IMG/VR virus record: IMGVR_UViG_3300005534_000005 | Span: 1 to 42,970 of that record | Strand: one strand, 5' to 3' | DNA: 42,970 nucleotides | Source of the DNA: a virus | Shown: in pieces, positions 596 to 41,209 of the stretch | Layout of the letters: the number at the start of each line of letters is the position of its first letter | Numbering within the stretch: the stretch's first letter is position 1 | Made by a program: the position numbers and the translations under genes | Notes under the pieces: model-generated | Told to the model about the DNA's origin: nothing | Databases searched by the model: none | What the model saw: only the letters and a program-made list of their open reading frames with translations

Positions 596-1198
596 ATGCT
601 CCTATTCTTCGACACGGAGACGAGCGGGATGGTCGATTGGAACCTACCCGTCGATCACCCCACTCAACCTCACATCGTCCAACTCGCCGGTATCCTATGC
701 GACGACGACGACGCTTGCTCCATCATCAAGCAGTTCCAAACCATCATCAAACCGGATGGGTGGGAAATCCAAGAGGAAGCCGCGCGCATCCACGGTATTT
801 CCCGCGACTACGCGTGGAAGTTTGGAGAGAAGATCGACGACGCCTTCAAGGCGTTCAATAAACTCATCGCGCAAGCCGATGGGAGCGGTGACGGCCGCCT
901 AATCGGCCACAACGTCACCTTCGACATTCGGATGATGCTGCGGGAGTACTCCACTCTCCCTGTCCACGATCATATTCCCATCAACAATCTTCTCCCGTTC
1001 TGTACGATGAAGTCAATGACCAACGTTTGCCGCATCCCCCATCCTACTAGGCGAAGCGGCTACAAGTGGCCGAAGTTGATGGAAGCGTACTACTACTGCT
1101 TCAACGCCGAGTTCCCCAACGTCCACACTGCGTTGGGTGACACTCTGGCCTGCCGTGACATCTTCGTACACGGAAGGCGGCAAGGATGGTGGCGCTGA
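596..1198 (+). CDS. DnaQ-like DEDDh 3'-5' exonuclease
   Basis: 200 residues. The DEDDh exonuclease signature is complete: FDTETSG at the N-terminus (D6, E8), GHNVTFDIRM (D110) and HTALGDTLA (H177, D182). Family knowledge: such enzymes remove nucleotides from DNA 3' ends, as proofreading subunits or repair nucleases, using two metal ions held by the acidic residues. The gene lies between the two parts of the split DNA polymerase, and its end overlaps the start of the polymerase C-terminal gene by 13 bases. The polymerase N-terminal protein has its own DEDDy exonuclease domain, so this is a second, separate exonuclease. Whether it works with the split polymerase is inference. Confidence 0.9.
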   Translation: MLLFFDTETSGMVDWNLPVDHPTQPHIVQLAGILCDDDDACSIIKQFQTIIKPDGWEIQEEAARIHGISRDYAWKFGEKIDDAFKAFNKLIAQADGSGDGRLIGHNVTFDIRMMLREYSTLPVHDHIPINNLLPFCTMKSMTNVCRIPHPTRRSGYKWPKLMEAYYYCFNAEFPNVHTALGDTLACRDIFVHGRRQGWWR

Positions 1199-2094
1199 TG
1201 ACGATGATCGTCGGGGACGACCTCTCTCTCCATCTACCTAACGTCCGCTCCCTGTTCATCCCTGGACGGGGCCGCACCTACGTAGAAGCCGACCTAGCAC
1301 GCGCTGATGCGTGCGTAGCAGCATGGGATGCAGATGCCAAAGAACTCAAACAACAAGTCCTCGACGGAGTTGACCTCCACTCCGACAACGCACAGCTTCT
1401 GTACGGCACTCGTTGGACCGGCCGGAAGTTCGAGACGGTGCGTGAGATCGCGCCCCGTACCATGCACTCCAACGGAATGTCCTATCGCGACAATGCTAAG
1501 CGATGGGTCCATGCAACGAATTTCCACGGTGGCGCTGATACGGTGGCGTCCGTCATCGTAGTCGATAAGGAGCATGTGAAGGCGTGCCAACAGTGGTGGA
1601 CTGAGGCGCGGCATCCTGAGATCGGCCGCTGGCACCGTCGCATACAAGCGGCGCTCAACAGCCGCAAGATGCCAGTTATCCACAACGCGTTCGGGTTCCA
1701 CCGCATGTATGTGGGCGGCTCACCCTACGGCCGCAGTGACGGCAATCTACTCGGTCAAGCACTTGGATGGATATGTCAATCCACCGTCGCCATAGTCATC
1801 AATCGCGGGATTGAGAGGATCGATTGTAACCTCGACTTGATCGGCCGGCCTCGTTGTGGTGACTGCCTCGTGTGTCACGGTAGAGAGTGGGAGCTTCGCC
1901 TACAAGTCCATGACAGCATCCTAACAACCATCCCCACTCCATGCGTAGAACCCGTTCGTATGAAGGAGCTTATCTCCGCTCTAACTATCCGTGTCCCTTA
2001 CGACGATCCCCTTTACATTCCAGTCGAGATCAAGTACTCTCATGACAATTGGGGAAACATGAAGAAGTGGACTGATGACTCGGCGGCATTATGA
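1186..2094 (+). CDS. polA: Family A DNA polymerase, C-terminal part (fingers and palm)
   Basis: 302 residues holding the catalytic core missing from the protein at 41206-42951. Motif A is VEADLARAD (catalytic D36; Asp where E. coli Pol I has Glu710). Motif B starts RDNAK (R101, K105), with His109 and Phe113 where Pol I has Phe762 and Tyr766. Motif C is QVHDS (H242, D243). It opens with NVRSLFIPGRG, matching the segment just before motif A in Pol I, so no conserved block is lost between halves. A four-cysteine stretch (C214, C224, C227, C230) lies just before motif C. ATG 1186 is chosen because GGAAGG lies 8 bases upstream; ATG 1198 and 1204 are alternatives. The C-terminus ends YSHDNWG like other Pol A proteins. 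Confidence 0.93.
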   Translation: MVALMTMIVGDDLSLHLPNVRSLFIPGRGRTYVEADLARADACVAAWDADAKELKQQVLDGVDLHSDNAQLLYGTRWTGRKFETVREIAPRTMHSNGMSYRDNAKRWVHATNFHGGADTVASVIVVDKEHVKACQQWWTEARHPEIGRWHRRIQAALNSRKMPVIHNAFGFHRMYVGGSPYGRSDGNLLGQALGWICQSTVAIVINRGIERIDCNLDLIGRPRCGDCLVCHGREWELRLQVHDSILTTIPTPCVEPVRMKELISALTIRVPYDDPLYIPVEIKYSHDNWGNMKKWTDDSAAL

Positions 2095-3478: not shown

Positions 3479-6008
3479 CAACGACACGGCGCTCCAATTC
3501 CTTCATCGCGGCTTCCATCTGCTTACTGTCCGGCTGCAACTTCCCGATCTGCCGGATGAGTGGTAACGTCCCTGGAACCTCTTGCAACTTCGTGATGACG
3601 TTGAATAGTAGATGTCCCGCGTAGGGGGCGGCGATCATACCCAGGCCGCCGAAGATATGGCGCGGCTCGCCGGTCATCACGCCTTCGGCCACTTTGATCG
3701 CCCCGAAGGCTTGCAGCCACGAGTGATGCGTGAGTATGTCGAACAGACGCGAACGCTTAGACGGCTCCACTGCAAGCCTATTAGCGATCTTCGCTATGCC
3801 CTGCACTCTCTCCAACAACTCCTGTCCACCGACCTCTCTAATCGCGTCCGTATGATCTTTGATGTACGCGCTGAACTTCTCATAGGGGTTCTTGCCGCGC
3901 TCTATCTCGTTCAACATCTTATACGCGAATGCCTTGAGCATGTCTTCCTTGGCGGCCGGCCCCACCATCTGCATGAACGAACGCAGCGCATCCATGTCAT
4001 GCCCTTCCATCAGCGTCGTCGCTTGATCGAAGAACTTCGCGGGCGTGACGCCGCTGAACGGCACGTTAGGATCGCCCCTAATCTGCGACGGGTTCATTCC
4101 ATGAAACTGTCGCTGGATAGGCGCGATGTTTCTCGCATTGAAGGTCGCGGCCTCCCGCGAGCGTTTGATGAACCTCTCCACGCTCATCCCGGCTTCGGCC
4201 GCAGCCTCCTTCGCAGCACTCTCCAAGTTCCCACGCATCTCTAGGAGTTGATGGCGTGTAGCTGGATCGCGCGTGCGCGACTTCTCTCTATTAATCGCCT
4301 GTACCGCGCTGCTGTACTGTGCAGGTGTAATGGCCGGCGGCTCGAACTCACCAGGATGTATGGGTGCGGGCGGTATGCGGCCACTTGCTATATCATTCCG
4401 TAACTGTGCTGCTCGCAGTTCGGCCGGCAAGCTCTCCATGCCCTTCGTATACGTCTTTTCCCACTCCTTGTAATCCTTCTCATGCTGCTTGATCGCGGCT
4501 TGATGTTGCTTCTCCATCGCACGAGCGGCCGGGCCGCCAAGCTCCTCATCGACACGCGCCGCTACACTTCGCGTTGCCGGTGTCGGCGCTACGCCCGCTA
4601 CACGAGTACCATCCATCGCGTCCTTCACAGGCGTACCCATCGCCTCCCGGGGAAATCCATCACCAATCTCCCGGCCGGCCGCGTTCCTCAACGTGTACTT
4701 TGCGTCCTTCTCTTGCCACAACTTATCGTAATGTTCGAGGAAACGCTGTTTGATCTGTGAGGCAGAGGGGGAGATCGTGCCTACTGCGTCCTTCACGGTG
4801 CCGATGAAGTCGCGGTAGGCGTTGTTGTCGGCGATGCGGGAAGCGCCGATCCCCACGGCGCGCGTGATTTGGCCGACTGTGCCGCCGAAGGCCGCCCCCA
4901 CGATGCCTTCTAGCAGCCTGGACGCCTCCTCAGGCTTGGGGTTGTAGGAGGTCGCCCCTGCGGCCCCACCAGCCAACGCCGCCCGCGCGGTAAGCCCTAG
5001 GCGCGCGCTCACGGCCGGCATGATTGAGGCAATCGCCTGCGGCGCTTTGATCGCCCCGAGAAGCTCGCCGCCGGCCATGATCCCCAACGCCGTCCCGACC
5101 GTCTTCCCAGCGAACGCAATATACGGATGCTTCTTCGGCGCATCGAATTGATCCTCGAACGAGTTCACCATGTTAGTGAACTTCTGCGCGGTCTGCGGCG
5201 ATACTTGTTCGAGTGTGGCTTGTATCGGTCCGGTGACAAGCTCTTGCATTCCTTGCCGCACTCCATGCGCGAGCGCGCTAATGCGCTCATCGGGAGGATC
5301 GTTGGGAGCGTGTCCCATCGAGATCGCTTCAACGTCTGCGAGATCGTCTTGCGGCCCACCCCGTCCTCGTTCCGATGCATCTTCACCGCTCGCGGTTGGC
5401 GGCTTTAGGAACTTATCAATATCATCGGTCTGTCCGACGCGCTTAGCCTCTACGATACTCGTGGGCGACGTGTCTCCTAGACCTGCATGTGCAAGGACGG
5501 CCGGGACGTAGTTCTTTGTCTCTGCTGGTAGCGCGTACTTCCCGTCTTCCGGCCGCCCTTCGGCGATCCACTTGTCAACGCGTCCGGGTCCCGCGTTGTA
5601 CGCGGCCAACGTATCATCCCAATTCCCGTACTTATCGAACAACTGTCCGAGATACATCTTGCCGCCGGCCCGGTTCTGCGCTTCGTCGGTAGGATCAACG
5701 CCAAGCTGCTTCGCAGTGTCAGGCGTAAGCTGCGACACACCCATCGCACCCTTTGGGCTAGTGATGATACGTCCCTTATCATCCGTCTGTCGGTTCCCGC
5801 TCTCCTGCTGCCACATCGCCCCGGCGATCATGTCGAGGGCGGCGCGGCCACGGTTAGGGACGTTCAGATGCAGCGCGCCGCCATACTGTCCTTCAGGCGG
5901 TAACGGTGCGCCTCCGCTCTGCGGCTGGGGCGCGGACTGCGGTATAGGCGCGACAGCTCCGGGCGTCCGCGCTGCAACTTGATCGAGCGCCGCGTCTAGC
6001 GCGCTCAC
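3372..6008 (-). CDS. Ejection (internal virion) protein with N-terminal lytic transglycosylase domain
   Basis: 878 residues, GTG start overlapping the upstream stop (GTGA). Residues about 50-175 form an SLT-type transglycosylase: catalytic Glu in QQESG (E69), KGAMGVSQLTPDTA (86-99) and AAYNAGPGRV (135-144). The family cleaves peptidoglycan. In short-tailed phages such domains sit on proteins ejected with the DNA that open the cell wall. The middle (about 290-400) is rich in Ala and Gly with hydrophobic stretches that could cross a membrane, and later parts are charged and helical (KQHEKDYKEWEKTY). Last gene of the late operon; its 3' end overlaps the convergent ATPase gene by 107 bases. Confidence 0.85.
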   Translation of the reverse strand: MSALDAALDQVAARTPGAVAPIPQSAPQPQSGGAPLPPEGQYGGALHLNVPNRGRAALDMIAGAMWQQESGNRQTDDKGRIITSPKGAMGVSQLTPDTAKQLGVDPTDEAQNRAGGKMYLGQLFDKYGNWDDTLAAYNAGPGRVDKWIAEGRPEDGKYALPAETKNYVPAVLAHAGLGDTSPTSIVEAKRVGQTDDIDKFLKPPTASGEDASERGRGGPQDDLADVEAISMGHAPNDPPDERISALAHGVRQGMQELVTGPIQATLEQVSPQTAQKFTNMVNSFEDQFDAPKKHPYIAFAGKTVGTALGIMAGGELLGAIKAPQAIASIMPAVSARLGLTARAALAGGAAGATSYNPKPEEASRLLEGIVGAAFGGTVGQITRAVGIGASRIADNNAYRDFIGTVKDAVGTISPSASQIKQRFLEHYDKLWQEKDAKYTLRNAAGREIGDGFPREAMGTPVKDAMDGTRVAGVAPTPATRSVAARVDEELGGPAARAMEKQHQAAIKQHEKDYKEWEKTYTKGMESLPAELRAAQLRNDIASGRIPPAPIHPGEFEPPAITPAQYSSAVQAINREKSRTRDPATRHQLLEMRGNLESAAKEAAAEAGMSVERFIKRSREAATFNARNIAPIQRQFHGMNPSQIRGDPNVPFSGVTPAKFFDQATTLMEGHDMDALRSFMQMVGPAAKEDMLKAFAYKMLNEIERGKNPYEKFSAYIKDHTDAIREVGGQELLERVQGIAKIANRLAVEPSKRSRLFDILTHHSWLQAFGAIKVAEGVMTGEPRHIFGGLGMIAAPYAGHLLFNVITKLQEVPGTLPLIRQIGKLQPDSKQMEAAMKELERRVVVSAAVLGRRAAPATAPLAPVGQAIGNAAMSLTGLQ

Positions 6009-7507
6009 TGCTTCACTCCCATCGCCGCTAGTACATCGGTAGGATCAAGGTTCCTCTGTTTCGCCTTGAGGATGATGTCTGCTCCAAGATACGAAGCACC
6101 GTCACTCGCCTTGTACTTCTTGTCACCGACGACTAGCGATTTGAAGCTCTTAGGATCGACCTGATTGCCATTAAACATGACGACGCTCTTTTGCTCGTCC
6201 GGTTTATCCGCGGGACCGACGACGTAGGATTGCAAGGAGCCGGTGAGCTTCTTCACTCCCTCCCATTTCTCCTTCGCTTGTTGGAGGGACTTCTGGTCCG
6301 GCCGATCTGCGATACGAGCGTTCAAGTTCGCGAGCATCCTATCCGCGACTTGATCCGCGCTAATGAGTGCATGTAACGGTGTCTCCGTGATACCGGGCGT
6401 CACATCCTTAGCGAGCCGCACTCGCCCTTGTGCGAAGAACCCTCCACCGCTAGTCGCGGCCGATGCGGTCTGCTGTATTGAAGCATTCCACATATCGAGA
6501 ACTTCGGGATCACCAGTCGGCACCCCCCAGCTTTCTAGGCTGGCCTTGAGGTTCGCACCTTGCAATAAACCGACCTTCTGTGGGTTCTTAGCGAACGCGT
6601 CCATGAACCGCTGTGCGCTCTCCGCATGGGTGGCAGCTTCGGCCGCGTACTTCGTCTCTGCTTCATTTGGAACATCTGCACGCATCTTTGCGGCGCTCTC
6701 CGCGCGCTGCCGCGCCGTGATGTCCTTCATCACCGCTTCACCGGCCTTGCCGGGATCGCCCGTCGAATAGAGGACGTTCCCATACATAGCTTTGTACGTC
6801 GCTGCTTGCTTCGGATCGTTGATCCCAACGGCGTGGAGCATCGTGTCGAGGCTAGTAGGGGACGCCTCACCCTGCGTCAATATCTCATTCATTCGACGCA
6901 TACGATCTGCGGTCATAGCGGCTACCTGCGACTCACTCCCAGCCTTTTCGGCCACCGCGCCAGCTTCTTGCACCCCACTCGTACCGATAATTTGGTTCTT
7001 GATCTGAAGCTGTTTCGCATCCTCCGGGGTCAATATCTGTGAACGCGCGGTAGCTTGCTGTGTACCTGCTGTAGTCGCCGCAATCTGCCCCGCTTCTAGT
7101 GGAGCTAGCATCTTAGACTTCTCTGTTGCTTGCTGTGTAGCAGCGGTAGCTGCCTCTGTGCCAGCGAGTGTGGCGGCGGCCTGCGGCCCCGCGTAAGGAG
7201 TTTTCGCTTCAAGTTGTGCCTTCTGTGCGGCTGTCAACCCCACTTGTGCCAGCGTATCCTTCAACTTCGCCTGCACAAGTTGGTTCTGTGTGAAGGTCTT
7301 GAAGAACTCTGTACCCGGCACGCCGAACTGCTTCGCGACCTCGCCGAACTTATCATTATCGGCGATGGACGGGTCGGACATGATCTTCTGCACGCCTTCG
7401 GCAGTCTGCTTCAACTGCACGTTCTGGATGGCGCTACCAGCGGCCGCCCCTAATCCCTGCCCGATCAGTGCGGAGCGTTTATCTTCCGGTAGATATATGA
7501 CGGGCAT
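6005..7507 (-). CDS. Internal virion (ejection) protein candidate
   Basis: 500 residues, TAATG junction with the gene upstream and GTGA junction with the transglycosylase gene downstream. It is rich in Ala, Gln, Lys and Thr and predicted largely helical. Residues about 115-165 hold two imperfect copies of a repeat: TQQATEKSKMLAPLEA and TQQATARSQILTPEDA. No enzymatic motif is seen. Its place between an S74-tailed protein and the transglycosylase, its length and its composition fit the second of three podoviral ejection proteins. The assignment is by context and composition. Confidence 0.7.
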   Translation of the reverse strand: MPVIYLPEDKRSALIGQGLGAAAGSAIQNVQLKQTAEGVQKIMSDPSIADNDKFGEVAKQFGVPGTEFFKTFTQNQLVQAKLKDTLAQVGLTAAQKAQLEAKTPYAGPQAAATLAGTEAATAATQQATEKSKMLAPLEAGQIAATTAGTQQATARSQILTPEDAKQLQIKNQIIGTSGVQEAGAVAEKAGSESQVAAMTADRMRRMNEILTQGEASPTSLDTMLHAVGINDPKQAATYKAMYGNVLYSTGDPGKAGEAVMKDITARQRAESAAKMRADVPNEAETKYAAEAATHAESAQRFMDAFAKNPQKVGLLQGANLKASLESWGVPTGDPEVLDMWNASIQQTASAATSGGGFFAQGRVRLAKDVTPGITETPLHALISADQVADRMLANLNARIADRPDQKSLQQAKEKWEGVKKLTGSLQSYVVGPADKPDEQKSVVMFNGNQVDPKSFKSLVVGDKKYKASDGASYLGADIILKAKQRNLDPTDVLAAMGVKQ

Positions 7508-8727
7508 TACGCGGCCTCTAGTAGATCAGCGATCACCGCTCCATAATCGACGGTCTTAACGCCACTTCGTAGTGTGCCCACGGCATGTGGCAACTTCTTC
7601 TCGACATCTTGTGCAACGAAGCCGACATGCGTCTCCGGCCGCCCCTTATACCGAAAACGATAGATACCCACACCGCTATCGAGTGAGCCGACCTTCTTCA
7701 CGTCATCCTTCACACGTTCGTCTGAGAGGAACGATAGAAGAGAGGAGCCAGCGCTTGCAAGTGAGGGGCCGAGAGCTTGTCCGAGACCCTGGTTCGATGC
7801 GAGATTGCCGAGCAGTGAAGGAATAAGGCCAGTCTGCCCAGGATTGACGATGCTGTTCGTCTGTTGCGTGGGGATGCCAGTGGCATTAATCGCCAATCCC
7901 ATCCGTTGCAACGTCTGCTGTATCTGACTGTAGAAGTCGTTGACCTGTCCCGCGACTTGCGTCTGCTGTTGCTGTTGAGGCACCGCACCGGCCGCCAACG
8001 TACCACCGAGCAAACTCTCCGTAGTAGATGCTTCCGCCCCTGGAATGGCGGAGGTCGCGGGAGCTAGGCCAAGTGCTTGCAGGATCGCACTCTGCCCAAA
8101 CTCGTTCGCACCGATGTTTAGGCCGCCCGCAGTCAGGGCGTCGGCCGCCGTGGTGGTGGCTGCCGACAGGTTCGCTCCCTGGTTTGCACTGGCCGCGCTG
8201 AACCCAAGTTGCCCGGCCTCCGTCGCGATGTTGCTTTCGAGGTCGCTGCCGGCCTGCCTACGTGCCTCCATCGCGTCCGAGGAGAACCCGCCGCCAGCGC
8301 TCGCACCGTACTTCCCTGTAATCGCCGGCAAGATGCGGTCGTTGAACGCCTTAGTCAACGGATCGACGACGCTCTGCTGAATGACTTGAGAGGGATCGAT
8401 CTGCTGCGCTTGCACCGTCGGCGCACTGACTTGGCCCGGCCCGCCGTAGTTCAATCCCTTCGACAGTGCTTGGAACGCCTGCGTGGGATCAAGCTGCGGC
8501 ATGTTCGGGATGACGTTGGAGGCGAAATGCTCTAAGCCGGCGAGGGACATATTCTGCAAGCCGCTTAGCGGCGCTGAGAACGTCCCTTGATACGGCTGCA
8601 CCCCAGGAGCGGGAGCGCCGCTCTGCATGAAGCCGGCAAGAGCGTTAAGTATGTTCTCTTGTGTGGGATTGATCGTCGGCGAAGTTGTCGTCTTGACAGA
8701 CGGAGCCGAACCAAAGAGGAAGCTCAT
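7507..8727 (-). CDS. Virion protein with C-terminal S74 intramolecular chaperone domain
   Basis: 406 residues. The first 330 are Ala/Gln/Gly/Ser-rich and helical (runs such as QQQQQTQVAGQ), typical of a small ejection protein. The last 72 residues form a peptidase S74 domain: LSDERVKDDVKKVG (Ser335-Asp336, the expected self-cleavage dyad), then YRFRYKG, HVGFVAQDVEKKLPHAV and TVDYGAVIADLLEA. Family knowledge: S74 domains help trimeric fibres fold and then cut themselves off just before the serine. Here it is fused to a protein that looks internal, not a fibre. ATG with GAAGGAA upstream, 4 bases after the acetyltransferase stop. Confidence 0.8.
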   Translation of the reverse strand: MSFLFGSAPSVKTTTSPTINPTQENILNALAGFMQSGAPAPGVQPYQGTFSAPLSGLQNMSLAGLEHFASNVIPNMPQLDPTQAFQALSKGLNYGGPGQVSAPTVQAQQIDPSQVIQQSVVDPLTKAFNDRILPAITGKYGASAGGGFSSDAMEARRQAGSDLESNIATEAGQLGFSAASANQGANLSAATTTAADALTAGGLNIGANEFGQSAILQALGLAPATSAIPGAEASTTESLLGGTLAAGAVPQQQQQTQVAGQVNDFYSQIQQTLQRMGLAINATGIPTQQTNSIVNPGQTGLIPSLLGNLASNQGLGQALGPSLASAGSSLLSFLSDERVKDDVKKVGSLDSGVGIYRFRYKGRPETHVGFVAQDVEKKLPHAVGTLRSGVKTVDYGAVIADLLEAA

Positions 8728-8731
8728 AACG

Positions 8732-9229
8732 CTATTCCTTCACACGCGAGAGGCAGAGAAGTACGAGATCGCGTAAGGGAGGGCCGTCTTTGACCCTACG
8801 AACTACTGCCTTCGTCAATCTACCTTCTTCCTTGAAGCCGATGTTCCTCGCGAGATAGATCGCCGGCTTGTTGTCTGAGGGTATCATAGCACACAGCTTT
8901 GTCAAGCCCTTTTGCGTAAACGCGAGGCCGATACAGTGCTTGATGAAGTTCTTAGCGATCAGGCCGCGGAACTGCGGTAGGAAGCCTGTGTGTATCTCGG
9001 CCATGACACTCGTCCGCTTGATGAACTGAATGTAACCGATGATGACGCCACGGAAGGTAGCTGCGACCGTCCATGTATCGGGATGAGCAAGATGGCTCTC
9101 GAAGTCCATCTCCTCCGGCTGCGGAGCGAGCGCGTCGGTCGCGCTCCAGTACACGGCCGGATGGCGCATCATGGCGGCCATCGCCCCCATCTCATACCGA
9201 TCCGTCACGGAGAAGTCTTCACCACTCAC
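8732..9229 (-). CDS. GNAT-family N-acetyltransferase-like protein
   Basis: 165 residues from a GTG at 9229, chosen because AGGAG lies 9 bases upstream; a TTG at 9235 is the alternative. The fold pattern is GNAT-like: N-terminal helices, a central TWTVAATFRGVIIGYIQF strand pair, then EIHTGFLPQFRGLIAKNF where acetyl-CoA would bind, and IPSDNKPAIYLARNIGFKEEGRL, the classic NxxAxxxxxxxGF pattern. The family transfers acyl groups from CoA to amines. The target is unknown. Genes of this kind occur in the structural clusters of several podoviruses, so a role in head or tail maturation is possible. Confidence 0.8.
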   Translation of the reverse strand: MSGEDFSVTDRYEMGAMAAMMRHPAVYWSATDALAPQPEEMDFESHLAHPDTWTVAATFRGVIIGYIQFIKRTSVMAEIHTGFLPQFRGLIAKNFIKHCIGLAFTQKGLTKLCAMIPSDNKPAIYLARNIGFKEEGRLTKAVVRRVKDGPPLRDLVLLCLSRVKE

Positions 9230-11027
9230 TGTCAATTACTCCTAGTAGAGTACCACGCCGTAGCTGGAACGTCGGATCGGTGCCGCTGAGGCGGAACATG
9301 ATCTTCGTGGTCGAGAGATCGACGTATGCGTTCATAGATGCGGATACGCCAACACCGAGGCCGAACGTGCCAATCGTCGTCCAGGTGTTTCCTTCATCGG
9401 TCGAATACTCCAGTAGAACATTCGATCCCTCACCGACGAAGGCCCATCGCTCCCTGCGAACATACTCCGCGCCATCCCCATATTCCTTTGTGATGATCTG
9501 CCACGGAATTACCGTACCATTATCAGTCGCGGTACTGTAATCATATACCATCAGCTTGCTCTGTGTAGGAGAGCATAAGAGGAAATTGGGGATGTTCTGC
9601 TTGTAGATGCGGCTGTTCCACGGCTCTGGGTGATCCGTCCACACTCCTGGTATAGTCGCCCAGGTGAACGCTTGCAGGGTGATACGAGGAGCGATCGACA
9701 CGAAGCTATCCGCAAAAGTTCGATGGAACCACGCATTGTTGTCGAGAGCGACGCGGAGCATCGTTCGGGGGAACGCGTCATTGCCGGACGGAAAGAATAC
9801 CCAACACTCATCGAAGTCGCCGACGTATTGTGTGAACACGGTTCGGCGGGCGGCCGGGTTCAGCGCGCCACCTTGCGAGAAGTAGTCGAAGAACACTGCA
9901 TCGCCGATGCTAGTCAACTCGTAGCTGCCGTCATATAGATACAGACCGGCATTCCCAACGAAGAAGTGAACATCGCCTGTCTCACTCACCGCGGCCTGTG
10001 AGATTGCCCCCTCACCGTAGATCATATACTCCCAATACAGCGTCTGATTGGGCAGCCCGAAGTACGACGCTCGCATGATCGTCGTCTCGCGGTACGCGAT
10101 CAAGTACGGTCCCAGGAGGTTGAGAGAGAGGATGAAGTCTTCCGTGTCGAGGAGATCGTAGATCGCAGCGATGCCCGTACCAGGCGTCCACACCTGCGGA
10201 TTGAGTTGATCCGACATACGGATACGCTGGGGATACGACGTACCATTCTCGATCAAGTTGCCTAGGATGAGACACTCGTGGAACACGGCCATCGCTTGAC
10301 AAGTCGTGTTCGTCGGGAGGCCGCCGAGAACCTGTACTACTCCTTGATAGTAATACATTACAGGATCGACGCCGTTCGAGAAGATCGTCCACCCATTACC
10401 GGGGAACTCGGTGAACACTACCTGCGTCTCATTGGTAGGATCACCGTGGAGGGTGGCGGCTAGTGCGACTGGCGCACTATTGTTCACGGTCTTCGTCGAA
10501 GGTGTAGAAATGGTGACGACAGTACCACTGATATTTGTAATCGTTCCGACGATCTGCGTACCGTCGCTCTGCTGCACTCCTAAGGTCGCGCCGACTGTGA
10601 GGCCGGCAACCGAGGCGAGGTTGAATGCAGTCGTGCCTATGGGATACGTACCAGCATGATTGACTGAATACGCCGCACCGAAGGACACAAGTTGCCATTG
10701 GACGACGTTTTGATCGTACTGATATATCGTCGCGGTGGTGATGAGTAGATCGACGCTCGAACCATCAGGATTGAATATCTGATACGAGGCGGCCGCCTGT
10801 CCGATGAAGGTCGATCCGAACGGCGTGTAGCCGGTATCGACACTGAGATCGCCTGCGACGATATTGAGGTTCTCGATGTAGACGGCTTCGTTCGGTGCGA
10901 GATCGGGCGGCGCTTTGTCAGTACGGAAGCCGCCAGACAGCAACGGCATCGGCTCGCGAACCACTTGTTCTTGTGGTGCGAGCTGCGTCAATACCCTCGC
11001 GTCGGTCTCTACATTCCGGCCTTGCAT
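9219..11027 (-). CDS. Large podoviral tail protein (nozzle/tubular candidate)
   Basis: 602 residues from ATG 11027, overlapping the upstream TGA (TGATG). It opens PMPLLSGGFRTDKAPPDLAPNEAVYIENLNI, a pattern I associate with proteins in the position of podoviral tail nozzle or stabilisation proteins. The rest is beta-rich with repeated aromatic and Gly turns (DVHFFVGNAGLYLYDGSYEL, WTTIGTFGLG), suggesting a propeller-like fold. No enzymatic motif. The 3' end overlaps the acetyltransferase start. Alternative: another tail hub component. Confidence 0.7.
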   Translation of the reverse strand: MQGRNVETDARVLTQLAPQEQVVREPMPLLSGGFRTDKAPPDLAPNEAVYIENLNIVAGDLSVDTGYTPFGSTFIGQAAASYQIFNPDGSSVDLLITTATIYQYDQNVVQWQLVSFGAAYSVNHAGTYPIGTTAFNLASVAGLTVGATLGVQQSDGTQIVGTITNISGTVVTISTPSTKTVNNSAPVALAATLHGDPTNETQVVFTEFPGNGWTIFSNGVDPVMYYYQGVVQVLGGLPTNTTCQAMAVFHECLILGNLIENGTSYPQRIRMSDQLNPQVWTPGTGIAAIYDLLDTEDFILSLNLLGPYLIAYRETTIMRASYFGLPNQTLYWEYMIYGEGAISQAAVSETGDVHFFVGNAGLYLYDGSYELTSIGDAVFFDYFSQGGALNPAARRTVFTQYVGDFDECWVFFPSGNDAFPRTMLRVALDNNAWFHRTFADSFVSIAPRITLQAFTWATIPGVWTDHPEPWNSRIYKQNIPNFLLCSPTQSKLMVYDYSTATDNGTVIPWQIITKEYGDGAEYVRRERWAFVGEGSNVLLEYSTDEGNTWTTIGTFGLGVGVSASMNAYVDLSTTKIMFRLSGTDPTFQLRRGTLLGVIDSEW

Positions 11028-11287
11028 CACACATTCGTACCAGTGGCATCTACCCAATGACTAGTCGAGCCGTTCCACCATATCGGCTTATTGATCGTTG
11101 TGTCGAAATAGGTCTGCCCCGTTACAAGCTGCTGAGTTGGTCTCGAAGCTGTCGTCCCAAAGTCGGGGTTGTTGATCGCCCCCGCGATCCTCTGAAACGC
11201 CGTGAGAATGTTCGTGATGAGAGTGCGGAACTGCGGATAGCCGCTCGGCGTCTGTAGCGTTGGGAAGCTCGTTGGGACTTTTGGCAT
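11027..11287 (-). CDS. Small tail-associated protein, out of frame inside the upstream gene
   Basis: 86 residues. The sequence looks truly coded: a helical start (YPQFRTLITNILTAFQRIAGA) and a C-terminus (TGQTYFDTTINKPIWWNG) typical of phage fibre or baseplate segments that bind sugar or neighbouring chains. Its ATG at 11287 lies about 200 bases before the end of the upstream frame (11088-11561), with only a weak AGG upstream. Translation may start by internal initiation or reach this frame by a +1 shift near 11290; a sequence error is also possible. The stop overlaps the start of the next gene. Confidence 0.7.
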   Translation of the reverse strand: MPKVPTSFPTLQTPSGYPQFRTLITNILTAFQRIAGAINNPDFGTTASRPTQQLVTGQTYFDTTINKPIWWNGSTSHWVDATGTNV

Positions 11288-14676: not shown

Positions 14677-15666
14677 TTACTGAGTGTTGATCGTATCGAG
14701 CACGCCGAGGACGCGCCGGCGATTGGTGAGGAACGTCATGGCGCTAACGATCTGCGCGGCCTTGTCGTTCACCTGGTTCGGGATCGGCTTCCACTCCGTC
14801 ATGTCGAAGAAGTAGCCCGGATCGTAGATGAGCTTGAGGAAGCGCGTGTTGAGGAAGTACATCCTCTGAGTGATCGACGGCGACCACACCATCGGGATTT
14901 TCTTGAACGTCTGGCTGTCGAAGCCAGCGTCCGCGAGCTTGTTGTTGCTCAAGCGGAGCATCGGAAGGACCGCATCCTCGTACAGTTCATACGAGGTCAT
15001 GTCGCTGAGGATGATGTCGGGCGCATCCATGCGACGGTTGTTCATGCAGAGGTTCAACAAGTGGCGCATGTTGTAGATGCCCCACACGGCGAACGACAAG
15101 TTGTTCATGCCGATCGCTTGGTTCTGCCACCACGTATAGACAGACGGATCGATGCCGCCCGCATTATATGCGCTGTTGGCGACGTTCGCGCTGTCCGGCA
15201 CGAGGTACTGCAAGCCGTGGATCGAGGGCGGGTTGTTCGTGTCGCCGTTGCTGCCGACCAACCGTGTCTCCAGTTCGGAGACGAGGCTTTCTTCCGTGTT
15301 GTCGAGCTTCGACGTGACCCAATCGATGATCTTCTCACCGTTCGAGTTCTGCTGCTCGTCGATACCGAACCGGAGGATGTTGGCCGTCAAATACCGCCAG
15401 TTGTACTGCGCGACGGTGAGGAACTTGAAGTCCGTCATCGGAACCGTACCGCCGCGGCCGATCCAGCCAACGGTAGTGTTCGTGCCGTACATCAAGTTGG
15501 TCTCGATGAAGCGGCCGCCACGCTGCGGTTCGAGCTTGCCTTTGTCCTTCATCCAGTACCAGAAGGGCGTGGCTGCGAAGATGTTGTCGAAGACGCCCGG
15601 CAGACGTTTCTGCCAAGTCGTCGTGTACAGGTCGTCGAGTGCCTGAGTGAATTGGTTCACAGCCAC
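14677..15666 (-). CDS. Major capsid protein
   Basis: 329 residues, GTG start with AGGAG 9 bases upstream. Features of phage capsid proteins: an N-terminal arm (NQFTQALDDLYTTTWQKRLPG), then GGRFIETNLMYGTN, a helical LDNTEESLVSELETRLVG spine, IILSDMTSYELYEDAVLPM, and a C-terminal MYFLNTRFLKLIYDPGYFFD. The scaffold gene lies directly before it and the decoration protein candidate after it. Length is normal for an HK97-fold podoviral capsid. No protease gene is seen nearby. Confidence 0.85.
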   Translation of the reverse strand: MAVNQFTQALDDLYTTTWQKRLPGVFDNIFAATPFWYWMKDKGKLEPQRGGRFIETNLMYGTNTTVGWIGRGGTVPMTDFKFLTVAQYNWRYLTANILRFGIDEQQNSNGEKIIDWVTSKLDNTEESLVSELETRLVGSNGDTNNPPSIHGLQYLVPDSANVANSAYNAGGIDPSVYTWWQNQAIGMNNLSFAVWGIYNMRHLLNLCMNNRRMDAPDIILSDMTSYELYEDAVLPMLRLSNNKLADAGFDSQTFKKIPMVWSPSITQRMYFLNTRFLKLIYDPGYFFDMTEWKPIPNQVNDKAAQIVSAMTFLTNRRRVLGVLDTINTQ

Positions 15667-15679
15667 GTTACGTTACTCC

Positions 15680-16471
15680 TTAGCTGTTCATCAACGCCGC
15701 GAGGACAGGATGTCGCTCGGTGACTTCATCGAGGGCCGCCATCGTAGCTTCGCGGCCAGAGAGCTTCTCGGCCTTGCCATCGCCGTCCGCTCCGGTCGAT
15801 CCGCCGAACGGTGTCAGGCCGCCCCATTTCGGTTTCGGGGGAGCGGGTGGATTGTACTTCTTGTCGAGGGCCGCAACCTTCTCCGGGTTCAATCCCTTCG
15901 CGAGCGCATAGAGTTGGGGGATGGAGAGGGTCTGATGCTCCTTCGCGAGCGCGGCCATGTCTCCCTTCCAGTCATCGAAGTCCTTCGCCTTCGACTTGAG
16001 GGCCATGATGTCTTCGTTGACGCTCTTTGCCGAGACGTTCGTCTGTAGGGAGTTGACTGCGGCGACAATCGGTTCCATCGCTTTGTTGATCTCGTCGCGG
16101 AGCGATCCGTGAAGATTACGGGTCACGTGTTCCGCGAGTTCGCGAGGCGTCATCGCATCGAAGTCAACCGGCTCTGGTTCCGGTTCGGGCGGCGTCGCCG
16201 CCTTAACGGTGTCGATGAGCGCATCCATCTTCCCGGCAAGCACACCGTTGCCGTTGTTCATGCTCTCCAACGACTGCATGAACGCACCCCAATCCGGCCC
16301 CGGTGCGGCCGATCCACCTTCGCTGCCAGTCGTGGAGCCACCGCCGCCACCACCGCCGTTCGTACCTCCGCCGGCCTCGCCACCCCCCTCCCCGTCGATA
16401 CTCAACGCGAACCGCGAGGTCGTCCGCAGTAGGTGGGATAGCATCGGGTCTGTGTACTTCGACGGGTTCAT
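15680..16471 (-). CDS. Scaffolding protein candidate
   Basis: 263 residues, ATGA junction with the upstream 68-residue gene. The N-terminal 60 residues hold a Gly-run linker (GGGTNGGGGGGGSTTG), followed by an acidic, Pro/Glu-rich part (PPEPEPEPVDFD) and a long helical charged middle (LRDEINKAMEPIVAAVNSLQ). The C-terminus is basic then helical (REATMAALDEVTERHPVLAALM). Low complexity, high charge, helical content and place just before the capsid gene are typical of scaffolds that shape the procapsid and then leave. Confidence 0.75.
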   Translation of the reverse strand: MNPSKYTDPMLSHLLRTTSRFALSIDGEGGGEAGGGTNGGGGGGGSTTGSEGGSAAPGPDWGAFMQSLESMNNGNGVLAGKMDALIDTVKAATPPEPEPEPVDFDAMTPRELAEHVTRNLHGSLRDEINKAMEPIVAAVNSLQTNVSAKSVNEDIMALKSKAKDFDDWKGDMAALAKEHQTLSIPQLYALAKGLNPEKVAALDKKYNPPAPPKPKWGGLTPFGGSTGADGDGKAEKLSGREATMAALDEVTERHPVLAALMNS

Positions 16472-16759: not shown

Positions 16760-17035
16760 TTAGACCCATCGCGTCTCTCCCGTCTTCCATACCATGCTAT
16801 CGCGCAGGTAGTGTGACGTAACTCCCTGCTTGTTGCACAGTTGCCGAAGTTCCTCCCGCGACGACACAGGCCGAACGGGGTCCCAAGGGTCAAACGCATG
16901 TTCCATCACGAGTTCGTCTGGGAAGGACACGACTGCGGGAGTACGTGGGGCCGCAGCCATGTCTGCCTCACACCGTTCGCACGGCTCGCCGATCAGATGG
17001 TTGCAGCCGGTGTTCGTCTTGATCCTATAGCTCAT
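16760..17035 (-). CDS. Small cysteine-containing protein next to the portal gene
   Basis: 91 residues, ATGA junction with the portal gene. The N-terminus has TGCNHLIGEPCERCEAD (Cys-x7-Cys-x2-Cys plus His), a possible zinc site, and another Cys lies in LRQLCNKQG. The C-terminal half ends WKTGETRWV. Not recognised. Its position suggests a head assembly or portal-associated role, which is inference. Confidence 0.65.
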   Translation of the reverse strand: MSYRIKTNTGCNHLIGEPCERCEADMAAAPRTPAVVSFPDELVMEHAFDPWDPVRPVSSREELRQLCNKQGVTSHYLRDSMVWKTGETRWV

Positions 17036-18801
17036 TGTGATACTCCATTACCACTGCCACCGTTGGCGGCCATCATCTGCTGTATGCGTTGCATCCCTTC
17101 GGGAGAAGGAGGCGGGAGGGACGACAGTTGTTGAGCGGCCCCCTTCACGTCCATCGGATTACCTTGCGACGTGTTCATCATCGGGTTGAGCATCAAGCTA
17201 TCTGCGTACACGCCGTAGAGTTCGTTGAGGAGGAAGCGTGTCAACTCCATCGGGTTGATGAGGGGGTTAGGGCGTAGCATTCCAAATAGTTGTATTGCCT
17301 TGCTCTCACGCATCTGCTTCGTGAGGGGAAGCGACGTGTCGGGATCGACGTGGAGATCATAGATGGCGTTGTGGAGTTCGTGAGGCGCGAACTTGATCCA
17401 GATGGGTACACCGGCCGGCCCAAGGATGTCGAGCACGATGTCACTCGTCCAGTGCTCGATAATCACTTGGTTCATGTCGGTGACGAGATCGACAAGGAGA
17501 TCGGCACAAGCGTCACGATGTTCATCGATGCGGATTTGTGTCGCTTGGTTGACGATCTGTGCTTCCGTCGCCGAACGATCCGCACTCCCTGGTGCGTACT
17601 CACCGAACTGATTGACGCCGAGACCCATCAACTCCTGCGCCTCGCGATCCATCAACTCATCTTCTTCGATGAGGCCGGCCGGGATGCCCGACGAGACGAG
17701 TTCCTTCACACCGTTGATACTCTTGACGTGGACAACGCCCTTCGTATTGCCGTCGATGAGTTTACTCTCCTCATCTGGAGTGATGGTTCCAATCTCGGAG
17801 AGGAGCTTCACGATAGACACACGCCGATGACGCATAATCATCGTGCGAGTTTCGTTCTTCTCTCCTTGGATCGGCGTGATGATTTGGGAGAGCGGTACAC
17901 CCCAGAACGCCTCGTCATCTTGATTGAAGATGAGAGGATAGTAATTGAGGCGGCCGTTGTGTTGCAGGTCGTCCTCGCCCTCGAACAACACCTTCGACCG
18001 GGGATTGCCCTTCCTCGCGTTGCTGAACGGAGCATAGACGAACACGATCCCTGTCTTCTTATCCCTTATCTCTCGAAGCAGCACTCCGTTCTTCGCACGC
18101 TGGTTGGAGGAGGCTCCGGCCGTTATCATCTTGTTGTCGCCGATGCCTTCTTCAAGCTCCTCGGTGTTCTTGAGCCGCTTGTCGTGCTTGATGTCATCGA
18201 GAGTGCGGATACTCTCATAACACACCCAACGCGCCGAGTGAATGTCGGATGCGCCCTTTGGTAAGATGGTGTTGCCGGGGTGGGCCGGAAGTACCCAGGG
18301 CATGTTTGGGTGTACGAGATCGTTGTACTCGACGCGCTTGCGGCGATGATACGAGCCGTGTTCGGGAGCGCTCGTAGCGAGATCGTCGGGAGTGGGAGTG
18401 AACTCCGCGCCGTAGCCGAGACGTAGGCCGCCCGTACCAAACATGAACGCATGTTGTACGCAGCGCTTCATACTCTCCTTAACGTGCATCACGTCTAGGA
18501 GTTTGTTGTCGGCCCGCTCCATCAACTTGCACCAAATCATGTTCTCGACACCCGGCACTGAGGGCGTGATCGAGACAGACGGATTGCGGTAGTAGACGCG
18601 AGGGATGAAGGTGCGCGCGATCTTGAAGTAGACATTCGAGGGGAGGGTGCCGGCCGACCACTCCCCTCTATACCACCGCCGCCACATCGGCCATTGGTCT
18701 TCCTTCGCATACTTCTTGCGTTCTTCCTTGCCTTGTTTGACAGCGCTATCCCACCAGCCGATGTCAACTAGGCCGCGGCCGCCCGTGTACCCATCAGCCA
18801 T
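17032..18801 (-). CDS. Portal protein
   Basis: 589 residues, start one base after the ATP-grasp gene stop. The N-terminal half has the portal pattern: DQWPMWRRWYRGEW, IPRVYYRNPSVSITPS, and later IFNQDDEAFWGVPLSQIITPIQGEKNETR, which is strongly typical of podoviral portals. The last 120 residues are helical (NPLINPMELTRFLLNELYG) and end in a flexible Pro/Met/Gln/Gly tail. The portal forms the ring at one head vertex through which DNA is pumped by the terminase. The large terminase is two genes upstream. Confidence 0.88.
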   Translation of the reverse strand: MADGYTGGRGLVDIGWWDSAVKQGKEERKKYAKEDQWPMWRRWYRGEWSAGTLPSNVYFKIARTFIPRVYYRNPSVSITPSVPGVENMIWCKLMERADNKLLDVMHVKESMKRCVQHAFMFGTGGLRLGYGAEFTPTPDDLATSAPEHGSYHRRKRVEYNDLVHPNMPWVLPAHPGNTILPKGASDIHSARWVCYESIRTLDDIKHDKRLKNTEELEEGIGDNKMITAGASSNQRAKNGVLLREIRDKKTGIVFVYAPFSNARKGNPRSKVLFEGEDDLQHNGRLNYYPLIFNQDDEAFWGVPLSQIITPIQGEKNETRTMIMRHRRVSIVKLLSEIGTITPDEESKLIDGNTKGVVHVKSINGVKELVSSGIPAGLIEEDELMDREAQELMGLGVNQFGEYAPGSADRSATEAQIVNQATQIRIDEHRDACADLLVDLVTDMNQVIIEHWTSDIVLDILGPAGVPIWIKFAPHELHNAIYDLHVDPDTSLPLTKQMRESKAIQLFGMLRPNPLINPMELTRFLLNELYGVYADSLMLNPMMNTSQGNPMDVKGAAQQLSSLPPPSPEGMQRIQQMMAANGGSGNGVSQ

Positions 18802-18802
18802 G

Positions 18803-20071
18803 CTACAGCCATCCCCATTGCTTCAACTTCGCGATGTCATCGTTGACACGCGCGCCTATGTCCGTCCGATACTGCTTCCCCAAAACTGCGATCTTGTCGA
18901 GCAAGCGGTACACGCGACGCCGCGCCTCATACGTGTAATCCGGCTTGCCGCGTCGATTAATTGATCCCACCGCTGTTGCTTTGAGTAGGACACCATCGCC
19001 GCTAGCAGTGAAGTAATCGCCTCTTTCTTGAAACAGGTCGGTGAGGAACAGATGCCAGATATTGTCATCGTCGATGCCTGTGATCGGTTCCGGTTCATCG
19101 TCGCTGTCGGGCTTACGGACAGGCCACGGCGGGACCGAGAGGCGCACCGCGATCATTGTGTCTTCCGTCAACTTCATTTCCTTCTTCGTACCGTTTGCGA
19201 CATCGAGGAGGAACTGGCCGGCTGGTTCTTCAAGCCCTTCGATGAGCGCTTCGACCGCATCGTAACCCATGCGCGAAGTCGCTTCAAGCGCATATGCACC
19301 ATCTTCGGTGACGATACAGTTCACGTCGAGCGGCCCCCTATACCCGATCATCCGAAGGAATGGGGCGATACGCTCCACAGTAGCAGAAGTAAGCCGATTT
19401 CCGTCAGCGCGAATGACAATGTTGCCCATGCAGCCAGTGTTGACGCCGAGATTACCCGCGAGGAACCGTTTCTCCTCGAATGTGTGGTTGAACGGCCGAA
19501 TGAACTCGTTCCCATTGAACCACCCCTCCGTCGAGACTTCCACTCCACTGACAATCTGCTGGACTATGCCATCGCACTTCTCCTGTAGTTTCGCTAGGCA
19601 GCGATCCCACAGCTTCTCGTCCTTGCAAACCATCGTCTTGGCCGTCGATAAGTTGCCGTTCGGTTTCACTACCCATCCTTCACCCCATCCTTCCTTCTGT
19701 GTGATCGCTTTGGCTTCTGCCGTAGAGTGGAACTCGAACGTGGGCGGGACGGAGACGCCTGCCCGTTCAAAGAGTTCCATACCCTTGACGCGGTTGAGTT
19801 CGATAATGTCGAGGAGCGAGGAGAAGCCAATAGCCGGCTTGTTGAAGGAGCGTACGAGGTCTTCATACTTGCCGAGGCCGACGCTATCAGCGATGATGAG
19901 ATCGGCGCGACGGGCCGCCGTCTGCCATGACGGGACACGTGAGATGATCCCCCGGCCGGCCTTCTTGAACCGCTCATCCGGTATCCACACATCTACCGAA
20001 TGACCTTCGAGGGCGAGCCGTTGGGCCACCCCAAGGCCATCTCCTTCCTTACTGACAAATAAGACACGCAT
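18803..20071 (-). CDS. PurD-like ATP-grasp ligase between terminase and portal
   Basis: 422 residues, TAATG junction with the large terminase. Residues 1-90 form an N-terminal Rossmann-like domain (MRVLFVSKEGDGLGVAQRLA). The ATP-grasp part follows: GWVVKPNG (K136), GVEVSTEGW (176-184), FEEKR (198-202), NTGCMG (211-216; NTGGMG in PurD) and ALEATSRMGYDA (261-272). PurD joins phosphoribosylamine and glycine using ATP. The conserved blocks argue for an active ATP-dependent carboxylate-amine ligase, but the Gly-rich loop after K136 is altered (NLSTAKTM), so the substrate may differ. The gene lies inside the packaging module, not near nucleotide genes, so a role in virion or DNA-end modification is possible. 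Confidence 0.8.
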   Translation of the reverse strand: MRVLFVSKEGDGLGVAQRLALEGHSVDVWIPDERFKKAGRGIISRVPSWQTAARRADLIIADSVGLGKYEDLVRSFNKPAIGFSSLLDIIELNRVKGMELFERAGVSVPPTFEFHSTAEAKAITQKEGWGEGWVVKPNGNLSTAKTMVCKDEKLWDRCLAKLQEKCDGIVQQIVSGVEVSTEGWFNGNEFIRPFNHTFEEKRFLAGNLGVNTGCMGNIVIRADGNRLTSATVERIAPFLRMIGYRGPLDVNCIVTEDGAYALEATSRMGYDAVEALIEGLEEPAGQFLLDVANGTKKEMKLTEDTMIAVRLSVPPWPVRKPDSDDEPEPITGIDDDNIWHLFLTDLFQERGDYFTASGDGVLLKATAVGSINRRGKPDYTYEARRRVYRLLDKIAVLGKQYRTDIGARVNDDIAKLKQWGWL

Positions 20072-21675
20072 TAGTGGTACATCCGAGGGACGCCGAACAG
20101 GTATTCGTCGTCGCGTTCGGGGCTGCGGAAGCCCATGCTTTCAGCATGGCCGGGGAAGAGTGTATCGAAGCCCCACGGATTAGGATCGGCGATCTTCTCC
20201 TCTGTCTCTTTGATCGTCGCGGCGATGCCGGCGCGCTCTATGACGATGAGTGCATGGAGGGCGGCCATGACACGATCATCCATACACCCGCTATCAGCCT
20301 CGATCTTCCCATCCTTCTCCACGAACGTATCGAGTTCCCCCTTCAGTTCAGGGGAGTGGATGGTGAATAGGTCGGAGAGAAGCTCTCTCGCCGTGCCGAG
20401 TATCAGGCCGCGATTGGCGACGGTCACATTCGTCCCGAAGTGCGAGAGGCGGGAGAGTATCTCTTGGTTCGATTGCTCTCCATGCGAGCCGCGATGGATG
20501 AGGTAGAGCGGATACACGTCGATGAGGCGGGCCAATGTCGTCCCCCCATGATTATTCCGTTCGACGTTCACGTACGCGTTATTGAACCGCTTCGCGAGAC
20601 TGGCAAGAACGGACCCGAAGGTATGCGGCTCGGTGTAGTCGGACGCGAATTCAGCGACTTGTTCTCGTGTGGTGAGGGAGAACACTTGTGCGACGGCGTT
20701 ATCATCGCCCACACCGCCAGAGGGATCAGCACCAATAACATAAGCGTGGTCAGGGGAAGGATGTCCATCAAGGACATGAAGATCAGCGCTTTCCCGCTTC
20801 CAGAGTTGTGTAGGCTCATAACGCACCTTCCGAAAGAAGCCGAAGCCGGTGGATTGGAAGCACTCGTCGAAGTCGATAGGGTAGGATTGTTTGAACTTAC
20901 GAAGGTTGCCGTCGAAGTCTATTTCGAGACGCTCGCGCCGCCACTGGAGTTGTTCGAGGGAGCAGCCGCGATGGAGGAGAATGAGTTCTTCGTACTCATC
21001 GGAGAGCGAGCCGTGGAATTGCTTACGTTCGGCTTCACTCGTGAAGGGGAGAGCATATTCAGCGACATCAATCCAAGGGATGAAGTGGAGCTTGAAGCCG
21101 CGCCCCCTACGAGCGCGCGAACACATACGATGGAACCAGTTGCCGACGCCGTGTCCCGTACTCTCGACGGTAATCTCGCCGTGTTCGGCGGCCGGGAAGG
21201 TGCCATCCACGATACTCTCCGGATCGGGGTAGCGCGAGGCTTCCGACAAGTGGAGATCGGTGATTGTGTCACCATGACCGAACGTGCTCGACCCGGCCGT
21301 GCCTATGAATATCTTGCTGTTCGTTTTCTCGAAGAATATCTCCTGCGCGCTCGCGCGGCCGATCTGCGGCTTGAGGCCGCCTTTGAGGTTCTTGACGATG
21401 AACTTCGCGCGCTGGAGAAGACGGCGTGTCGCATCGCCCTCGTGTGACACGATAACACAGGTACGGTTTTCTTCGGCGAGACACTTAGCGAGATACCTTG
21501 CGATGACGTAAGAGGAGACGCCAGTCTGTCGGGCTTTCGGGATGATGTTGCGACGGTGCCAACTTGCATCTAGCCGCGCCTGCACTTCATTCAAGCGAAA
21601 GGGGCAGCGCACGCCGTTCTTATCGACGATCTGAAACATCGTCTCGATGATGGGCCGGTAGGGAGATGGCGTCAT
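20071..21675 (-). CDS. terL: Large terminase subunit
   Basis: 534 residues from ATG 21675 (ATGA junction with the 115-residue exported protein); the longer upstream frame lies within that gene. ATPase motifs: Walker A-like PKARQTGVSS (46-55), Walker B region TITDLHLSEAS, and coupling motif ITVESTGHG. RNase H-like nuclease motifs: VIGADPSGGVGDDNAV, NVERNNHGGT and MDDRVMAALHA, supplying the acidic metal ligands. The enzyme cuts concatemeric DNA and pumps it into the head. Unusually, the small subunit gene lies about 6.6 kb upstream, with ten or more genes between. Confidence 0.93.
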   Translation of the reverse strand: MTPSPYRPIIETMFQIVDKNGVRCPFRLNEVQARLDASWHRRNIIPKARQTGVSSYVIARYLAKCLAEENRTCVIVSHEGDATRRLLQRAKFIVKNLKGGLKPQIGRASAQEIFFEKTNSKIFIGTAGSSTFGHGDTITDLHLSEASRYPDPESIVDGTFPAAEHGEITVESTGHGVGNWFHRMCSRARRGRGFKLHFIPWIDVAEYALPFTSEAERKQFHGSLSDEYEELILLHRGCSLEQLQWRRERLEIDFDGNLRKFKQSYPIDFDECFQSTGFGFFRKVRYEPTQLWKRESADLHVLDGHPSPDHAYVIGADPSGGVGDDNAVAQVFSLTTREQVAEFASDYTEPHTFGSVLASLAKRFNNAYVNVERNNHGGTTLARLIDVYPLYLIHRGSHGEQSNQEILSRLSHFGTNVTVANRGLILGTARELLSDLFTIHSPELKGELDTFVEKDGKIEADSGCMDDRVMAALHALIVIERAGIAATIKETEEKIADPNPWGFDTLFPGHAESMGFRSPERDDEYLFGVPRMYH

Positions 21676-37793: not shown

Positions 37794-38291
37794 ATGGCTG
37801 AGCGGGAAGAACTGTTACCGTGTCCGTTCTGCGGCAGCGCGGCTGAGTACGACAGCCAAAGGTGGCGTCCAGCGTACCGCGCCGAGTTTAAGTCGCTGAC
37901 CGGGCACGCGATCACCTGCTCGACCTGCGAGGCTGAGATCGGCCTGTTCGAGTGCTATGAAGATGCAGCCGCAGCATGGAACCGACGTATCTTGCCGCTC
38001 ACACCGACTACCTCTCAGGTGTCACCCGATGCGGAGGCGGTAGCGCGCTCCGTCATGGCTGCGCACCGCGGCGACGTTACCGGGAAGGGGCCGCACAATC
38101 TCGTAGATTGGGAAGGGCTTACTCGGAAATACACGGCCGCCATCACCCAGGCCGTGGAACGGGAGCGTAAGGAAATACTTAGAGCTATCTTTGTTATTCG
38201 CGACAAGTACGGAAGGTCTCTTGACTGGTGTAATGCACTTAATGCGATACAAGATGTAATCCGCGCCCGCTCACAGGGAGGAAACAAGTAG
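37794..38291 (+). CDS. Lar-like zinc-ribbon protein with helical extension
   Basis: 165 residues. LLPCPFCGSAAEY, ITCSTCEAEIGLFE and DAAAAWNRR match the restriction-alleviation (Lar) family, which has two CxxC pairs binding zinc. Some Lar proteins weaken host restriction. Residues about 70-165 are an extra helical region (SPDAEAVARSVMAAHRGDV; AVERERKEILRAIFVIRDKYG). Antirestriction function is inferred from the family name only. Confidence 0.75.
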   Translation: MAEREELLPCPFCGSAAEYDSQRWRPAYRAEFKSLTGHAITCSTCEAEIGLFECYEDAAAAWNRRILPLTPTTSQVSPDAEAVARSVMAAHRGDVTGKGPHNLVDWEGLTRKYTAAITQAVERERKEILRAIFVIRDKYGRSLDWCNALNAIQDVIRARSQGGNK

Positions 38292-40892: not shown

Positions 40893-41209
40893 AGTTCTCA
40901 CACTCCCTCGTCGCCGATCCGCGCGAGGTACGAGCCGCGCTACCCGAGCTAGAGAGTATCCATCGTGAGCTGTACTATCACTCGACGTATGGTGCTAATC
41001 GTGGGCGCACCTTCGTCCCACTCTACCAGCGGCCGGAAGCTGTTCGCTGCGCCGTCGAAGGATGCGAAGCACCCTTCCCGTACTTCAACATCGAAGCGAC
41101 ACGAAGCAGCTACAACTGGCGTTGTCTCACCCACATCCCTCCCGACATCACTTTCCCTATCGGAATGAACTCGGAGGAGTGGATCGCGTCGGGAAGGAAG
41201 AAGGCATGA
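40658..41209 (+). CDS. Hypothetical protein with acidic N-terminus overlapping the basic gene
   Basis: 183 residues, GGAGAG 8 bases before the ATG. The first 65 residues are acidic and low-complexity (SEEEASTPIGGGTTQAQSGE), encoded in the same DNA as the basic tail of the previous gene. From about residue 66 it looks like a folded domain: ALCAAVRRLIEFSHSLV, LESIHRELYYHSTYG, AVRCAVEGCEAPFPYF (a Cys pair) and a C-terminal TFPIGMNSEEWIAS. Overlaps the polymerase gene by ATGA. Function unknown. Confidence 0.65.
   Translation: MGKYEQSEEEASTPIGGGTTQAQSGEEPKVEGEATSAVASGEGPTEQIPTRPAPQTAEGSADLVDGQDALCAAVRRLIEFSHSLVADPREVRAALPELESIHRELYYHSTYGANRGRTFVPLYQRPEAVRCAVEGCEAPFPYFNIEATRSSYNWRCLTHIPPDITFPIGMNSEEWIASGRKKA

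Follow-up and report, generated by a model that had tools for sequence, protein, structure and literature searches.

The open reading frame between the large terminase (terL) and portal genes of this virus probably encodes an active ATP-grasp carboxylate-amine ligase, one related by descent to PurD which has ceased to make GAR and has acquired new substrates. The window, by which we mean the whole 42,970-nucleotide stretch of DNA analysed, carries the gene on the minus strand at exactly 18803-20071, with an ATG start and a predicted product of 422 amino acids; its 70-bp terminal direct repeat implies that the record is probably complete, consistent with a circularly closed genome. We came across no published account of the gene in our literature searches.

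The view of the product as a PurD-like ATP-grasp enzyme, first put forward in a sequence-only reading, was upheld by profile and structural comparison. The protein matches Pfam GARS_A above the cut-off (5.4e-9), GARS_C below the curated cut-off (4e-4), and the NCBIfam purD model TIGR00877 at 1.8e-19 and 69.9 bits, short of the 288-bit equivalog cut-off; searched against the PDB, the family profile finds PurD as its top match (E 3.5e-37). An AlphaFold2 model built with 56 aligned sequences (mean pLDDT 95.9, pTM 0.93) covers all PurD domains in the PurD-type N, A, B, C arrangement and superposes on the ATP-bound Aquifex aeolicus enzyme, 2yw2_A, with Z 37.6 and rmsd 2.9 over 389 of the 422 residues, the next-best relatives being PurK and PurT at Z about 25. 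On this model the ligase is a full-length four-domain PurD homologue, the whole fold rather than a stray domain. It is a variant of a known fold that is absent from PHROGs (no matching family in v4 at E <= 0.01), and nothing in the BFVD viral structure library matches it over its full length (the highest TM, normalised by query length, is 0.44), which leaves no relative among viruses from which to take a function.

Position beside terL is all that speaks for a nucleic-acid ligase sealing DNA or RNA ends during packaging, a role the same reading had entertained and which we now regard as extremely improbable. The protein is of the carboxylate-amine ATP-grasp type, its K136 occupying the position of the PurD ATP lysine and not that of a nucleotidyl-transfer lysine, and the closest structural relatives listed (PurD, PurK, PurT, biotin carboxylase) work by acyl- or carboxy-phosphate chemistry and give this role no support; nucleotidyltransferase-type ligases do not appear among the structure-library matches listed, an absence that does not amount to exclusion.

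A QM/MM model of Aquifex PurD specifies the residues that meet ATP, Mg and glycine (PMC8880213), and these were transferred through alignments. In the ATP site, E100, K143, E192, K214 and R287 of the A. aeolicus enzyme correspond to E91, K136, E178, K201 and R267 of the ligase, while R94 stands in for a Lys (K103) and Q171 for a Glu (E185); with E263, the ATP lysine and the Glu and metal/phosphate residues typical of ATP-grasp carboxylate-amine ligases are thus kept, and an acidic residue, D249, is near-invariant in the family. Matters differ where substrates are bound. Of the PurD glycine ligands D212, R287 and E292 only the arginine survives, the others having become E199 and A272. GGREH, invariant in 16 cellular PurD sequences, reads x-G-D-G in the family; NTGCMGN replaces the NTGGMGAYSPAP loop of PurD, with a five-residue deletion; EEKR is found for QDHKR and LEATSRMGYDA for LEFNxRFGDPE, the metal-site Asn giving way to Thr and RFGDPE to R-x-GYDA. 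The earlier statement that K136 and the PurD blocks were retained is therefore right as to their existence, but every block is altered and GGREH is lost. Judged by alignment, the residues replaced are the ones for which recognition of glycine and phosphoribosylamine has been reported or inferred. In their place stand nearly invariant signatures (EGWFNG, NHTxExK, NTGCMGN, GYDA, DxN), with new near-invariant positions at E182, G183, W184, N195, H196, T197, P247, D249 and N251.

These exchanges bear directly on another explanation, that the gene is an ordinary GAR synthetase serving as an auxiliary enzyme to raise purine synthesis in the host. PurD is the nearest solved relative, and some phage surveys report purD among their auxiliary genes (PMC11097641, PMC12043954). 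Nevertheless, the score lies far under the purD cut-off; GGREH, GDPE, NTGGMGAYSPAP, the metal-site Asn and the glycine ligands D212 and E292 have all been replaced by other conserved residues; and Pfam scans of nearly all the larger ORFs of the record revealed no other purine enzyme, as the sequence-only reading had it. The phylogeny it called for, which compared 59 family members with 16 cellular PurD sequences, places the ligases in one clade, divided from PurD by a fully supported branch of about 4 substitutions per site; the tree was made by a quick method, and the long MW202796 row sits at the base, its exact place unsure. On cut-off, residues and tree we rejected a GAR synthetase role as very unlikely; the new substrate suggested before is probable, given the remade substrate-binding positions and this very long branch.

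Among about 600 bacterial genomes from the phyla to which two MAGs belong, PurD scored at most 127 bits as against 294 or more for the ligase family, and family-level scores were confined to MAG contigs already found and one chromosomal-looking sister branch. Its members, L154, L182 and the viral-contig L181, have in common with the ligase a non-PurD core but not the pocket signature: the chromosomal PurD-like genes G148/L154 and G613/L182 share E199, D249, N251, T265, R402 and D404 with the phage enzyme and differ from it at E182, W184, H196, C214, N217 and D271. No phage structural genes were seen beside these two. The L154 gene (6145-7557, minus strand) directly adjoins a guanidinoacetate N-methyltransferase-like ORF (5509-6132, minus strand; E 2e-37 to GAMT), a neighbour from which we do not draw a function since the 65% relative in G613 (L182) lacks it. 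On L181 the ligase-like gene (7328-8476, minus strand) adjoins an ORF whose start, by eye only, resembles a PLP-dependent decarboxylase.

The gene is under strong purifying selection, dN/dS being 0.05-0.21 in the ten relative pairs that gave an estimate, of which two or three have saturated dS and values at dS above 1.5 are unreliable. All 23 key positions are kept in 74 of 100 aligned sequences, an alignment in which the window and several overlapping fetches from a single contig are counted, and the most conserved family positions include the ATP site. Both observations weigh against a non-catalytic assembly or scaffold protein that merely borrows the PurD fold. Such a protein is hinted at by just two loci, L071:6001-7071 and L081:4037-5356, whose copies retain an open reading frame between terL and portal and look catalytically dead from their sequences, having lost catalytic residues (a deleted K136 region, E263K and R267S in one case or 14 of the 23 key positions changed in the other); we think this reading improbable for the family. 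Since these eroded genes are nonetheless kept in place, activity is evidently not needed everywhere.

In the window the ligase belongs to a minus-strand series running terL, ligase, portal, scaffold-like gene, major capsid gene. The terL ORF reaches 21936, though its likely true start is 21675, homologues beginning at MTPSPYR; terL (phrog_2, 2e-28) thus spans 20071-21675. At the terL/ligase junction (20069-20073), which reads ...CACTAATGCGT on the minus strand, the terL stop TAA and the ligase ATG share one base in TAATG, a 1-nt overlap; at the ligase/portal junction (18799-18805), ...CTGTAGCATGGCT, a single base separates the ligase TAG from the portal ATG. Both junctions had been described from the sequence, and both proved exact. 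The SU10/phrog_12082-like portal protein (17032-18801) is identified by weak direct matches (phrog_12082, 2e-5; SU10_portal, 0.0017, below cut-off) together with its conserved adjacency to the ligase. Between it and the major capsid protein (MCP; 14677-15666, phrog_9953, 2e-36) lies the scaffold-like gene of the same cassette (15680-16471; phrog_4150, 0.003), kept in 7 sister genomes, and further along the same strand is a virion structural/stabilisation protein (9219-11057; phrog_3287, 1e-29). A GNAT acetyltransferase is encoded within this virion block (8732-9235, minus strand), and GNAT/acyltransferase genes are annotated at similar places in Mx8, BUCT555, ppBjS10J-1 and MW202796. On the opposite strand is a Lar-like restriction alleviation protein (37794-38291, plus; Pfam 9e-11). 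DNA polymerase A is seemingly split across the circular join: a UDG-fused N-terminal part at 41062-42951 has its stop near the record end, the C-terminal part is at 1186-2094 (plus), and a DnaQ-like exonuclease (596-1198) lies between them.

To judge from the junctions, the ligase is likely to be made late, with terL and portal. How general this arrangement is was surveyed in relatives: in IMG/VR a scan turned up 146 stretches encoding them, of which 80 were kept, and in genome_contigs four, two with flanking terL and portal. The search was keyed on conserved peptides that included STEGWFN and the QYRxDIG block, and so missed members without these; the invariance of such peptides is thus in part a product of how the sequences were chosen. 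On the same strand as the ligase, terL lies upstream and portal downstream at 64 of 74 sampled loci, several of which are overlapping fetches of one contig, and this placement is kept in relatives down to about 36% identity. The terL and ligase genes often overlap by 1-26 nt, the commonest terL/ligase distances being -4, -1 and -26 nt; at some loci further sequence has been inserted, the ligase still lying between terL and portal. The co-organisation with packaging genes proposed for the window, and the terL-ligase-portal order whose survey had been recommended, thus extend well beyond it.

Residence in structural gene regions, mostly between terL and portal but beside tail or other virion genes in the divergent members L015, L088, L095 and L096, could mean that the ligase modifies proteins, attaching an amino acid or other group to terL, portal, capsid or tail protein during assembly. 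Protein modification is a known or predicted function of certain other ATP-grasp enzymes (PMC4431377). While the PurD architecture alone fits a small-molecule or a protein substrate, the complete PurD N- and C-domains retained here are the layout of small-substrate enzymes; moreover the flanking virion genes vary by family branch, leaving no single virion target in common, and neither G015 nor the searched parts of MW202796 have terL, portal or MCP of the window type. We rate protein modification as rather unlikely. Another possibility is that the gene just travels with a stable operon.

Gene content was compared between the window proteins, eight fetched relatives and about 20 kb of the annotated phage MW202796. 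The ligase is present in all the relatives, as expected of genomes fetched through that gene, and accompanies terL, portal, MCP and polymerase in seven whole ones; G015 and the compared part of MW202796 share the ligase and polymerase A with the window, without those head genes. Conversely MW202803 has terL, portal and capsid matching the window but no ligase gene, and Mx8 and BUCT555 have the window capsid type without it. In the phage collection searched, MW202796 is the sole full-length match (27% identity) and no cultured family member was found. The genes in common being ordinary replication and virion genes only, we abandoned the attempt to read a function from co-occurrence. The pairing with polymerase A in the distant G015 and MW202796, and adjacency to the packaging motor gene, could be taken to favour a ligase that modifies DNA or nucleotides and so decorates the phage DNA before it is packaged, but a polymerase in common may be no more than a sign of shared ancestry or of a gene frequent in phages, and no base-modification gene was recognised in the window; there is little likelihood of such a role.

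The carboxylate-amine ligase that we prefer, whose activity we infer from its residues and modelled fold, would work as follows. ATP and Mg2+ would bind between the A and B subdomains through E91, R94, K136, Q171, E178, K201, E263 and R267, with D249 probably also in this site; ATP would turn a carboxylate into an acyl-phosphate, and an amine, bound by the N- and C-terminal domains, would attack it to form an amide. The changes of D212 to E199 and of GDPE to GYDA argue against glycine, bound in the PurD manner, as the carboxylate, and those in GGREH, HAGT and GGRVL against PRA, likewise bound in the PurD manner, as the amine. The substrates would then be a non-glycine, amino-acid-like carboxylate and a small, possibly phosphorylated amine, the latter because YRxDIG is retained and a Gly-Asp loop replaces GGREH; YRxDIG retention by itself weakly suggests a phosphate-bearing partner. 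By analogy with PurT, where the phosphate of GAR is bound by Arg and Lys residues of the C-terminal part (PMC6968694), the N-domain loop and R402/D404 may hold the phosphorylated amine; PurT serves here because PRA binding in PurD itself is unsolved (PMC8880213).

The ligase probably joins two small molecules, or tags something, while virus particles assemble, a role during assembly being proposed because a whole lineage of uncultured phages keeps the gene between terL and portal. A stronger version, in which a broad phage lineage has made a dedicated biosynthetic amide ligase an obligate part of head assembly and packaging, with a substrate pair new to ATP-grasp enzymes, is a distinctly more doubtful possibility; were it true, the product would be a compound or covalent tag without which packaging, maturation of the virion or late takeover of the host would fail. 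Phage metabolic genes are usually accessory and patchy, whereas here a ligase of metabolic type is kept beside terL and portal. If active, it represents an ATP-grasp specificity not described before and adds a new chemical step to virion production; thanks to the conserved pocket, the question of its substrates can be tested directly.

Among known systems the ligase stands closest to PurD (TIGR00877; PDB 2yw2, 2xcl, 1gso), with which it has in common the four-domain fold, the ATP-binding and phosphoryl-transfer residues and the C-terminal YRxDIG, and from which it differs in the glycine ligands, the GGREH and NTGGMG loops, the GDPE motif and the metal-site Asn, all replaced, as well as in its sub-cut-off score and separate phage clade. 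PurT, PurK and biotin carboxylase have the same N-A-B-C ATP-grasp layout, but at Z about 24-25 their structural similarity is clearly below that of PurD. Genes for ATP-grasp, amidoligase and GATase proteins occur in LUZ24-like and OM43 phages (PMC3890496, PMC10580990); compared by description only, their ATP-grasp or amidoligase enzymes resemble the ligase in being phage-borne and having no known target. ORF28 of UFV-P2, again by description, is unlike it: a protein of 291 aa encoded in an early gene module, together with amidoligase and glutamine amidotransferase genes.
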